Positions 2,983-6,474 of a stretch of 6,474 nt of DNA are shown one piece after another. Both the position numbers and the translations under genes were made by a program. Numbering within the stretch: the first letter of the stretch is position 1; each line of letters opens with the position of its first letter. Location of the stretch: NCBI GenBank assembly GCA_035528375.1, contig DATKYS010000053.1:1-6474 (forward strand). The letters run 5' to 3'. Origin of the DNA: a bacterium (lineage in GTDB: Bacteria; RBG-13-66-14). The notes beneath the pieces were generated by a model. The model saw only the letters and a program-made list of their open reading frames with translations. It ran no database searches and was not told the origin of the DNA.

Positions 2983-3052
2983 GCCGCGCCGTGCGGGGCC
3001 GCCGTTCGGGGGGAACCATGCCGGAAGGACACCGTGGAGCGCCGCGCCGCGT

Positions 3053-3063
3053 TGTGGTAAAAT
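3053..3063 (+). promoter_or_regulatory. extended -10 promoter predicted to give a leaderless operon mRNA
   Basis: TGTGGTAAAAT contains the extended -10 element TGG-TAAAAT (3055-3063). Only nine bases separate it from the ATG at 3073, so transcription would begin at or within about three bases of the start codon. No ribosome-binding site is present upstream of that ATG, which fits leaderless translation. The -35 region (TGGAGC) is poor. Confidence 0.6.
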
Positions 3064-3072
3064 CCGTTTCAC

Positions 3073-4296
3073 ATGCACACCCTCCGCCGACCAGCCGTTC
3101 ATCTCGCCCTCCTCCTCGCCGTGACGGCCGCGCCCGCCCTCGCCCGGACCGAGGTCGTCGGCCAGACCTACACGAACAGTGATTACGGGTTCCAGGTCAC
3201 CGCCCCCGCGGGCTGGACCATCACCTCGAACGTGGGGGCGGCCCTGGTCCTGTTGGAGAGCCCCGACGGCCAGACGAACTTCCGCGCCTACGGCAAGCTC
3301 CTGGCCGGGCTGACCTCCCCCTCGGAGCACCGCCGGGTGTCCAAGAGCCAGTACGGCATCCGGGGCCGCGAGACGACGGTGCAGGCGCTCATCGAGTCCT
3401 GGGAGGGCCGGGAGCCGGTTTATCTGCCGATGCCCGTCGGGACCGCCCCCGAGGCGGTTCAACCGGAACCTCTCGAGGGCGAGGCCCTCCCCGAGGGGAC
3501 CTCCCCCGTCGCCGCCGAGGCCGCTCCGATGACCGCCGCCCGCCCGGAGGCCGGCGTGGACGACGATCCCGACGCCGGCGAGGTCATCGTGGCCGACCTC
3601 ACCGTCATGGAGGCGCTGGTGATGCTGCAGGGGACCACGGGCGCCCCCTACGCCGACCCCGAGACGCGCAGGCACGGACAAGAGCTGGAGAAGGACGAGC
3701 CCGCCCTGTCCTCGGACCCCCTGGCCGCCGTCCTGGCCGAGCTCGCCGAGGCCAAGCCCTACCTGGCGGTGTACGAGCAGGAGCTGGCCGACCCGGTCAC
3801 CGGAGAGGTCCGCCGAACCACCCAGCTCGCCTGCTTCGTCCTGCGGAACATGGTCGGCTACACCTTCGTGGCCGGCATGCCCGCCGACCGCTTCGAGGAA
3901 AACCTCTGGGACATGACGGGCATCTTCCAGTCGCTGCAGATTCCCACCCTGGAAGGCGGCAGCTTCTCCGGCTCCGGCGCCCTGAGCATGGACCCCCAGA
4001 CCACCGGGGTCATCGTGGGGAAGGTCCTGGTCCGGGGCACGCCGGTGCCCGGGGCCACGGTCGTGCTGTACCGGACGGAGGAGGACTACCGCGCGGGCAG
4101 GGTCTACAAAACGGTGACCTCGAACTTCATCGGCGAGTTCCAGCTCATCGGCGTCCCCCCGGGGACCTACTTTCTGTTGGAGGCCTCCGCCGACCTGGGC
4201 GGCGAGCTTCTCTCCACCTACCTGCCGGTCACGCAGATCAAAGTGCAGCGCGGGTTCGGCAGCTTCTACAACCTGGAGTTGGACCAGGCCCAATGA
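3073..4296 (+). CDS. exported protein: split PsbP-like region plus transthyretin-like domain
   Basis: The 407-residue protein has a signal peptide with Arg-Arg near the N-terminus and cleavage predicted after PALA (residue 24), placing it in the periplasm or outside the cell. YTNSDYGFQVTAPAGWTI (33-50) resembles the opening strands of PsbP/DUF1795-type domains. Residues about 228-292, ending GYTFVAGMPADRFEENLWD then IFQSLQI, resemble their closing half. Between them lies an insertion of roughly 100 residues rich in Pro, Ala and Glu (about 122-172), probably a flexible loop. The C-terminal part (about 312-372: VIVGKVLVRGTPVPGATVVL, then GEFQLIGVPPGTYFLLEA) is a carboxypeptidase-regulatory-like, transthyretin-like beta-sandwich, often used for adhesion or surface assembly. 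No catalytic residues are recognised. It is the first gene of a three-gene operon and its stop overlaps the next start (ATGA). The start lacks a ribosome-binding site; no better in-frame start retains the signal peptide. Confidence 0.85.
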   Translation: MHTLRRPAVHLALLLAVTAAPALARTEVVGQTYTNSDYGFQVTAPAGWTITSNVGAALVLLESPDGQTNFRAYGKLLAGLTSPSEHRRVSKSQYGIRGRETTVQALIESWEGREPVYLPMPVGTAPEAVQPEPLEGEALPEGTSPVAAEAAPMTAARPEAGVDDDPDAGEVIVADLTVMEALVMLQGTTGAPYADPETRRHGQELEKDEPALSSDPLAAVLAELAEAKPYLAVYEQELADPVTGEVRRTTQLACFVLRNMVGYTFVAGMPADRFEENLWDMTGIFQSLQIPTLEGGSFSGSGALSMDPQTTGVIVGKVLVRGTPVPGATVVLYRTEEDYRAGRVYKTVTSNFIGEFQLIGVPPGTYFLLEASADLGGELLSTYLPVTQIKVQRGFGSFYNLELDQAQ

Positions 4297-4874
4297 CCAA
4301 AGACGGACCGACCGACTATCAGCGCGGGCTCCTGTGGCTCGTGGCGGAGCTTCTGGGCGAGGAACGCCCCGAGGGGCTGCAGCGCTTTTTGAAGGAGAGC
4401 ACCCTCCACGCCCTGTTTTTCCTGGCCAGCGAGCGAGGGCTCCTGCCCTACGACACGGCGCCGGTCCTCACCAACTGGCACGGCGACACCCGCTACGTCT
4501 GCCTGAGCCAGGAGGGGCTCGAGGACCTGGCCGCCCTGGAGAAGCGGGGACTGCTCCAGCGCCTCGAGCTCACCGGCAGCCACCACGGCTTCTTCTCCGC
4601 CTACCGGATGACCGCGGCGGGGCGCGTCGAGGTCGCCGGGGTTCCCCCCGCGATTACCGCCGCCCTCGAGCCGCTCATCCGCTGCGCCTGCGGCGACCGG
4701 TGGGTCTACACCACCGGCAAGGAGATGGTTCGGCGCTACTGTCCGAAGTGCGGGACCGAGGAGGAGATAGGCTGCCTGGAGATACCCAAGCTGCCCTACA
4801 CCAGCGTCTCCCGCTTCCCCAACCTCCTGGGGCTCGGCTTCCCCGGCGAGGATAATAAGGACTCAGCTTCCTAG
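4293..4874 (+). CDS. predicted winged-helix and zinc-ribbon protein
   Basis: I do not recognise the family of this 193-residue soluble protein. Residues about 31-115 look like a winged helix: a helical part (FLKESTLHALFFLASERGLL), then LEDLAALEKRGLLQRLEL (76-93), and a wing ending SAYRMTAAGRVEV (102-114), the xYxxTxxGR pattern seen in MarR- or PadR-like regulators. Residues 131-153 form a probable zinc ribbon, C131-x-C133 ... C150-P-K-C153, with a further Cys161. The likely job is a DNA- or nucleic-acid-binding regulator with structural or sensory zinc, but neither activity is proven. Its ATG overlaps the preceding stop codon and it has only a weak ribosome-binding site, so translation is probably coupled to the exported-protein gene. 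The CorA-like gene begins ten bases after its stop, which suggests it may act on, or sense with, that transporter. Confidence 0.75.
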   Translation: MTKDGPTDYQRGLLWLVAELLGEERPEGLQRFLKESTLHALFFLASERGLLPYDTAPVLTNWHGDTRYVCLSQEGLEDLAALEKRGLLQRLELTGSHHGFFSAYRMTAAGRVEVAGVPPAITAALEPLIRCACGDRWVYTTGKEMVRRYCPKCGTEEEIGCLEIPKLPYTSVSRFPNLLGLGFPGEDNKDSAS

Positions 4875-4884
4875 AGGAGAGGAC

Positions 4885-6234
4885 GTGACCGATACCAACG
4901 AGCTGTTGTTCGCCGGCGGCTCCAACACCCTGGTGATCGGCGAGTGGATCCCCTTCGGCGCGAACTACATAGACCTCTTCAGCCGGAAGATCCGCCCCAG
5001 CTACGCCCCGGTGGGGAGCACCTTCCTCTCGGAGGAGATAGACCCGCGGCCCGAGGAGGCCACCTTCGAGATTCAGGCGCCGCCCACCGAGCTCATCGTC
5101 CGCGAGACGGTCCGCGGCAAGCGCGTCTCGCTCTCGGCCCGCCTGGGGTACGTCGAGACGGGGGGCGACATCCAGGACGAGCGGATCGGGGTCCAGCTCG
5201 ACGTCTTCGGCCGGGTGATTTACGCCGCCGGCCTGGATAGCGTCAACGGCCGAGGGGACCGCATCTCCCTCGACTCCCTCGCCCCCATCATCGCCGACCT
5301 GGTCACCGACACCTCCAAGATGATGACCACCGTCCTGGCCGGCTCCCAGAACCGCCTGCTGGAGCTCGTCCACCAGGGCTACGCCGACGAGCGGGACAAG
5401 TTCGTGGCCTTCCTGGCCCAGACGCTCCACCGGGGCGACGGGGAGGCCCTGGGTCGGAACCACGACCCCCTGGCCGACCGCGACGAGCGGGCCGAGGTGG
5501 CCCAGCTCCTGGGCGAAATCTTCGACAGTCTCCGGCTCCTGGACGGCACCCTGGTCATCCGGGGGCGGAGCGGGCTCTTCCTCATCGCGCCGGAGTGGCA
5601 GTCCTACGAGCGCGCCGTGACCACCTACGGCTACCTCCACGCCCTCGAGGACGCCGTGGACAACCTCTTCCGCGGCGCGGCCATCAACAACGACCGCATA
5701 CGACTGGCCAAGCGCTCCATCACCTCCGGCGAGGTCACCGAGGCCAGCGTCCTGCGGAAGGAGATGACCCACCTCTCCGAGGACATCACCACCTACAAAG
5801 TGCTGTCGGAGATGCTGGAGTCCGCCGCGTCCTCCCTCACCGAGTCCGTGGAGCGGCACCGCGAGGCCTTCGAGCCCCACGAGCGCGAGCTCCTGGAGGC
5901 CCTCGACCTCGAGAACGACCTGGAAATCCTCACCAACAAGGTCGGCGACCTGGGCACCACCTTCGAGGCCGTCAAGCTGAGCATGGACGGCCTGGTGCAC
6001 CTGGTGGGCACCCTGCGCGAGGAGGAGACCGAGCGGTTGAACAAGGTCATGCAGCTTCTGACCGTGGTGACCACGGTGGCGGTGCCCATCACGCTCATCA
6101 GCGGCTGGTACGGGATGAACTTCAAGGTGATGCCGGAGCTGAACTGGCCCGGGTCGTACTTCGTGCTGATCGGGGTGGCGGTGGTGATAATCGTGGGGTT
6201 GTTGGCCCTGTTCAAGCGCAAGAAGTGGTTCTAG
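4885..6234 (+). CDS. divergent CorA-family divalent-cation channel protein with long N-terminal domain
   Basis: The 449-residue inner-membrane protein ends exactly like CorA magnesium channels. There is a long cytoplasmic helix (about 300-388), membrane segment 1 (about 389-408), the signature YGMNF (409-413) with GMN at 410-412, an external loop containing MPEL (416-419), membrane segment 2 (about 424-443) and a basic KRKKWF tail. GMN is the ion-entry selectivity motif, and the MPEL loop is shared with Thermotoga maritima CorA, so Mg2+ or a similar divalent ion is the likely substrate, probably through a pentamer. The N-terminal region is unusual. GMN lies near residue 410 rather than near 312 as in the 351-residue Thermotoga protein, so about 100 extra residues precede the pore, and the first 250 residues are not readily recognisable as a CorA domain. 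The start is GTG, preceded by GGAGAGG. It is the last gene of the operon. Confidence 0.88.
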   Translation: MTDTNELLFAGGSNTLVIGEWIPFGANYIDLFSRKIRPSYAPVGSTFLSEEIDPRPEEATFEIQAPPTELIVRETVRGKRVSLSARLGYVETGGDIQDERIGVQLDVFGRVIYAAGLDSVNGRGDRISLDSLAPIIADLVTDTSKMMTTVLAGSQNRLLELVHQGYADERDKFVAFLAQTLHRGDGEALGRNHDPLADRDERAEVAQLLGEIFDSLRLLDGTLVIRGRSGLFLIAPEWQSYERAVTTYGYLHALEDAVDNLFRGAAINNDRIRLAKRSITSGEVTEASVLRKEMTHLSEDITTYKVLSEMLESAASSLTESVERHREAFEPHERELLEALDLENDLEILTNKVGDLGTTFEAVKLSMDGLVHLVGTLREEETERLNKVMQLLTVVTTVAVPITLISGWYGMNFKVMPELNWPGSYFVLIGVAVVIIVGLLALFKRKKWF

Positions 6235-6254: not shown

Positions 6255-6273
6255 GCGGGTTTTCCGCGTTTTT
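6255..6273 (+). terminator. possible terminator of the three-gene operon
   Basis: GCGG (6255-6258) pairs with CCGC (6264-6267) around GTTTT, followed by G and five T residues (6269-6273). It lies 20 bases past the last stop codon and inside the first array unit. The stem is only four base pairs, so termination may rely on the larger hairpins of units 2 to 4. Confidence 0.35.
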
Positions 6274-6297
6274 CCGCTCACACCGGCTTGCGATGAC

Positions 6298-6326
6298 GTA
6301 GGGCGGCCCCTCCGCGGGCCGCCGCG
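6298..6326. repeat. array unit 2, 8-bp perfect hairpin
   Basis: After the GTAGGG head, GGCGGCCC (6302-6309) pairs perfectly with GGGCCGCC (6316-6323) around the loop CTCCGC. Confidence 0.8.
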
Positions 6327-6338
6327 AATTGATATGAC

Positions 6339-6365
6339 GTAGGGGCGGGTGTCCACACCCGCCCG
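6339..6365. repeat. array unit 3, 9-bp perfect hairpin
   Basis: After the GTAGGG head, GGGCGGGTG (6343-6351) pairs perfectly with CACCCGCCC (6356-6364) around the tetraloop TCCA. The arms share only their first bases with units 2 and 4. Confidence 0.8.
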
Positions 6366-6393
6366 CGGCACCTGTCACCCATGCTGCGATGAC

Positions 6394-6432
6394 GTAGGGG
6401 CCGACCGACGGCGCGCCGTTCAGGTCGGCCCG
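6394..6432. repeat. array unit 4, 9-bp stem with nested palindrome
   Basis: GGGCCGACC (6398-6406) pairs perfectly with GGTCGGCCC (6423-6431). The loop contains a second palindrome, ACGGCGCGCCGT (6408-6419), giving a long two-part hairpin. The outer arms are identical to those of the copy at 30-51, whose loop is only TTGT. Confidence 0.8.
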
Positions 6433-6474
6433 TTCATGATGTAGGGCGGGGATTTGCCAGGGGCATAGCTCGCT

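Follow-up and report, generated by a model that had tools for sequence, protein, structure and literature searches.

The stretch of DNA analysed here, hereafter the window, comprises 6,474 nucleotides and is the entire contig C53 of a 2.63 Mb genome whose nearest relatives are Candidatus Coatesbacteria MAGs. Its plus strand carries three closely spaced genes: gene 1 (3073-4296, 407 amino acids), for an exported protein with a prealbumin-like C-terminal domain, gene 2 (4293-4874, 193 amino acids), for a predicted winged helix followed by a C-terminal zinc ribbon, and gene 3 (4885-6234, 449 amino acids, GTG start), for a channel of the CorA superfamily. The stop of gene 1 and the start of gene 2 share the four bases ATGA (4293-4296), and this junction, CAATGACC, shows the same overlap in each of G000-G003, the four genomes that make up the genus. 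At the second junction (4872-4887), a GGAG Shine-Dalgarno-like sequence precedes the GTG of gene 3, which lies 10 bases past the gene-2 stop. The gap is also 10 bases in G001; the two genes overlap by 4 bases in G002 and G003 and by 8 bases in G004, and in G006 a likely TTG start of gene 3 falls inside the end of gene 2. The layout, with its ATGA overlap and 10-base gap, is as a first-pass annotation had described it, and we infer from it that genes 1-3 are co-transcribed. A possible rho-independent terminator follows gene 3 (6255-6276, hairpin 6255-6267), which alone is not above chance, two terminator-like sites being found in the region where 1.3 are expected by chance. All three are real genes, conserved in sister species with amino-acid constraint; gene 2, for example, shares 84% identity with its counterpart in RBG_13_66_14 and 72% with that in CSMAG_1439. 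By the Nei-Gojobori method, synonymous change exceeded amino-acid change for genes 1, 2 and 3 in every pair; the dN/dS values of 0.3-0.7 are probably overestimates, since codon bias in a high-GC genome depresses synonymous divergence, and their direction alone was used.

Of 61 genomes searched with gene 2, six gave a match, all from the window's family: the four of the genus, and G004 and G006 from two further genera; G005, a family member that is 70% complete, gave none. Within the phylum, full-length gene 3 is distributed in the same way, and wider searches of 386 genomes with alignments of gene 2 (A1) and of gene-3 residues 1-300 (A3) recovered none beyond the same six. In all six, spanning three genera, genes 2 and 3 keep the same order and either overlap or lie at most 10 bases apart, in two kinds of upstream context, the second being a lipoprotein-like gene about 300 bases 5' of the coupled genes in G004 and G006. 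The co-occurrence of the two genes represents a single phylogenetic event and is not independent evidence of contact between their products. No relatives of gene 2 were found in viral contigs, nor did we find an account of such a winged-helix/zinc-ribbon and CorA-like pair in the open-access literature.

Judged by gene order, the conserved unit is the gene 2-gene 3 pair, two genes and not three. Adjacency of the full trio holds in four of four genomes of the genus and, beyond it, only genes 2 and 3 stay adjacent; the gene-1 orthologues of G004 and G006, 54-56% identical to that of the window, lie on other contigs (G004:C216, and G006:C12, where the neighbour encodes a 1045-residue cyclase/AAA/TPR protein). 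The trio was accordingly rejected as a conserved module beyond the genus.

The domain readings of the first-pass annotation held for all three proteins. In gene 1 an N-terminal hydrophobic stretch is followed by about 300 residues with no Pfam match and then by the prealbumin/transthyretin-like domain, which reaches 23.7 bits against SpaA (PF17802, cut-off 23.1), a match to CarboxypepD_reg remaining below its cut-off. The likeness to prealbumin-like and carboxypeptidase regulatory-like domains (PF17802, PF13620) is confined to this C-terminal domain, whereas the protein as a whole makes up its own phylum-level family. Distant relatives, 23-24% identical, are present in all eight well-assembled related genomes searched; phylum-wide they occur without the gene 2-3 pair, and in the other families checked they adjoin TonB-like genes with TonB C-terminal domains. 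Given its separation from genes 2 and 3 in G004 and G006, and the TonB-like neighbours of its distant relatives, gene 1 is most simply seen as a genus-level passenger, an independent envelope protein that is probably no more than an incidental neighbour of the pair. The same observations bear on the proposal, made in the first-pass annotation, that the three products form one metal-responsive envelope module. Coupling of the trio through ATGA in every genome of the genus would be expected of such a module, and the coupling of the winged-helix/zinc-ribbon protein with the CorA-like channel does stand; the envelope component, however, is missing from the arrangement in both other genera, and its relatives live without the pair, so that we regard the three-part module as highly unlikely.

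Upstream of gene 1, and divergent from it, the minus strand (807-2926) encodes a DUF4388 protein (1946-2926) and a cyclic-nucleotide-binding-domain protein (807-1277), with a sigma-70-like promoter for these genes at 2954-2982; both occupy this position in four of four genomes of the genus. Immediately 5' of gene 1, within window positions 3050-3073, lies TGTGGTAAAAT, an extended -10-like box about 12 bases from the start codon that is again present in all four genomes, and in G006 a TATAAT lies about 7 bases 5' of the gene-1 start codon. With boxes so near the start, the mRNA would have no leader or almost none.

Gene 3 matches the Pfam CorA family (PF01544) over residues 313-445 with 85.1 bits against a gathering threshold of 27. 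Hydrophobic windows at 387-409 and 418-449 mark two C-terminal transmembrane helices, and GMN stands at the end of the first (410-412) in all five complete gene-3 proteins. The YGMNF and MPEL motifs and the C-terminal KRKKWF recur in the canonical CorAs that other families of the phylum have, yet hhalign with those proteins aligned residues 381-449 only (46% identity, probability 99.3), and the CorA equivalog TIGR00383 scored 86.5 bits, short of its cut-off of 200.75, over residues 311-449 alone. The AlphaFold model has a mean pLDDT of 48, with residues 1-184 very low (mean 20-50); it contains long helices at 238-281, 287-328 and 342-415 and a second membrane helix at 423-445, as expected of CorA. 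With this low-confidence model Foldseek returned CorA structures as best matches (E 2e-6, about 300 columns), to which the helical stalk corresponds; VIA-align gave Campylobacter CorA at Z 12.5 and rmsd 1.9 over 124 residues, a score that unrelated helical bundles equal. Gene 3 thus has in common with the CorA/2-TM-GxN superfamily (PF01544; CorA of T. maritima and M. jannaschii) the two C-terminal membrane helices, the GMN, the MPEL loop, the basic C-terminus, the long stalk and a helical region, and differs from it in that residues 1-300 are unrecognisable by sequence and in that it is always linked to a partner gene. It is, as predicted from these features, a 2-TM-GMN channel whose cytoplasmic residues 1-300 are family-specific and changed beyond sequence recognition. 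Residues 1-50 are 76-92% identical between genera, the membrane domain 73-76% and other segments 36-70%.

One could argue that the pair is simply the family's ordinary Mg2+-uptake CorA with a diverged head, gene 2 being an unrelated small gene carried along. The GMN and MPEL loop are indeed intact, and G000, G004 and G006 have no CorA besides gene 3, which would then fill that place (a further, distant relative of CorA on a different contig of G001 is possibly contamination). The Mg2+ transporters of the phylum speak against this: canonical CorA occurs in G008, G010, G011 and G012, all four of which are without MgtE, whereas the family of the window has MgtE (G000, G003, G004, G005 and G006). 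Moreover, the start of the head is too highly conserved within the family to be merely drifting, and the coupling of genes 2 and 3 survives changes of context. We consider this reading unlikely; as Mg2+ can be handled by MgtE, the ion or the regime that gene 3 serves may be a different one.

The structural model of gene 2 has a mean pLDDT of 71, with 61 residues at 90 or above and residues 57-70 and 162-193 below 50. It places helices at 8-21, 35-47 and 73-84, a two-strand wing, a helix at 108-115 and a zinc-ribbon hairpin region, where the CxC (C131, C133) and CxxC (C150, C153) are invariant in six of six members, as is C161; this invariance points to a structural zinc no less than to a regulatory role. 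Foldseek and VIA-align recovered winged helices of PadR, MarR, MukE/MukF and Orc proteins at Z 7-8, values of a magnitude that is common, with Rv1176c (Z 8.3, rmsd 2.4 over 89 residues) among the PadR/MarR repressors, so that the predicted structure only says winged helix and nothing narrower. The DarG antitoxin domain, which was the top match at Z 9.1, was rejected as a relative, its superposition being poor (rmsd 5.2 over 139 residues) and its 16% identity being accompanied by no supporting sequence match. Gene 2 matches no Pfam family above cut-off, none of the six members matches a PadR or MarR family at E up to 5, and in the PDB a search by sequence found no convincing relative for either gene 2 or the gene-3 head.

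The main rival to the reading that we favour is that gene 2 encodes a PadR/MarR-like transcription factor that senses metal or redox state, controls its own operon and in this way determines how much channel is made. Its predicted helix-helix-helix-wing topology (residues 8-115) is the one that PadR/MarR regulators have, with good structural matches to such repressors, and the zinc ribbon with its invariant cysteines would suit a sensor. In two genera gene 2 is also the first gene of a bicistron behind a sigma-70-like promoter (TTGTCG-18-TATAAT in G006, a TATAAT box in G004). In contrast to those regulators, however, gene 2 has, between helices 2 and 3, where helix-turn-helix proteins have a short turn, a near-invariant 25-residue insertion (residues 51-75, LPYDTAPVLxxWHGDTRYxxLSQEG), 88-92% identical between genera against 32-55% elsewhere in the protein. 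The helix in the recognition position that follows is acidic in all members, with E74, E77, D78 and E83 invariant and a segment charge of -2 to -6, and the pI of the protein is 5.1-6.2 in five of six members and 8.6 in one. Finally, the regions upstream of the genes hold no operator-like palindrome common to the genera, few genomes being available for the comparison. The insertion, the acidic helix and the lack of a common palindrome together favour a partner protein over an operator-binding repressor, and leave autoregulation a possible but somewhat doubtful alternative.

We favour, at chances that we judge about even, a functional unit made up of the gene 2-gene 3 pair, in which a divalent-cation channel peculiar to the lineage has a cytosolic partner of its own, gene 1 being separate. 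Gene 3 would form a CorA-type divalent-cation channel, its ion specificity and, by homology, its pentameric state being presumed, with a standard GMN/MPEL filter loop and a family-specific cytoplasmic head. Gene 2 would be a soluble protein produced by translational coupling just ahead of the channel, most likely not a repressor of the classical DNA-binding kind but a dedicated cytoplasmic partner that binds the gene-3 head and helps in assembly or gating. Gene 1 would be a functionally separate envelope protein that in one genus came to sit immediately upstream of the pair, in the promoter-proximal position. The partner reading is supported by the coupling of genes 2 and 3 in all six genomes despite two upstream contexts, by their joint absence from all other sampled genomes (386), by conservation that peaks in parts beyond the ordinary folds (residues 51-75 of gene 2 and 1-50 of gene 3), by the CorA character of the gene-3 membrane domain and stalk, and by the properties of the recognition-position helix and the upstream regions described above. 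It is weakened by the closeness of the gene-2 winged helix to PadR/MarR DNA-binding regulators and by the single pI of 8.6, as well as by the very low confidence of the gene-3 head model and the prediction of both structures as single chains.

CorA channels are understood to be pentamers complete in themselves, with gating by Mg2+ at the cytoplasmic heads of the channel itself. One could speculate further that a CorA-type channel with a rebuilt head has taken on the winged-helix/zinc-ribbon protein as an obligate subunit on the cytosolic side, and that partner-dependent, perhaps zinc- or redox-dependent, gating replaces the canonical Mg2+-sensing head, an extension that we think rather improbable. 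A CorA relative with another head and a closely linked, dedicated cytosolic partner would offer a natural test of whether gating can pass to another protein. The reach is modest, being limited to one family of uncultured bacteria, and what is new is a lineage-specific variant within the known CorA superfamily, with a coupled partner.

An inverted repeat 5' of gene 2 in G004 and G006, considered as a candidate operator, proved to be a dispersed repeat. A dispersed inverted repeat of about 95 bp lies at L017:6231-6299, L017:8476-8544 and L016:5981-6053, and copies are spread over the whole of the G004 and G006 genomes; those few that were inspected lie between genes. Its near-identical arms carry (T/C)GGCACGNNNNTTGC, the sigma-54 -24/-12 consensus, with a variable inner hairpin between two sigma-54-like sites that face one another. 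The paired pattern, in a search that itself imposed the sigma-54 consensus positions, numbered 244 copies in G006 and 135 in G004, against 0-1 in each remaining genome of the phylum, that of the window included; sigma-54 is encoded by most genomes of the phylum. The repeat may be either a pair of convergent sigma-54 promoters or a REP/MITE-like repeat with arms that merely resemble them. No Rfam family matched in the window, L016 or L017. On the 3' side of gene 3, window positions 6291-6474 hold a cluster of GATGACGTAGGGGC and palindrome repeats, a second dispersed inverted-repeat family, and the contig ends within this cluster; TAGGGGCGGGTNTCCANACCCGCC alone, with 0 occurrences in the other genera tested, is found 3 times in G003, 26 times in G001 and 103 times in the genome of the window.
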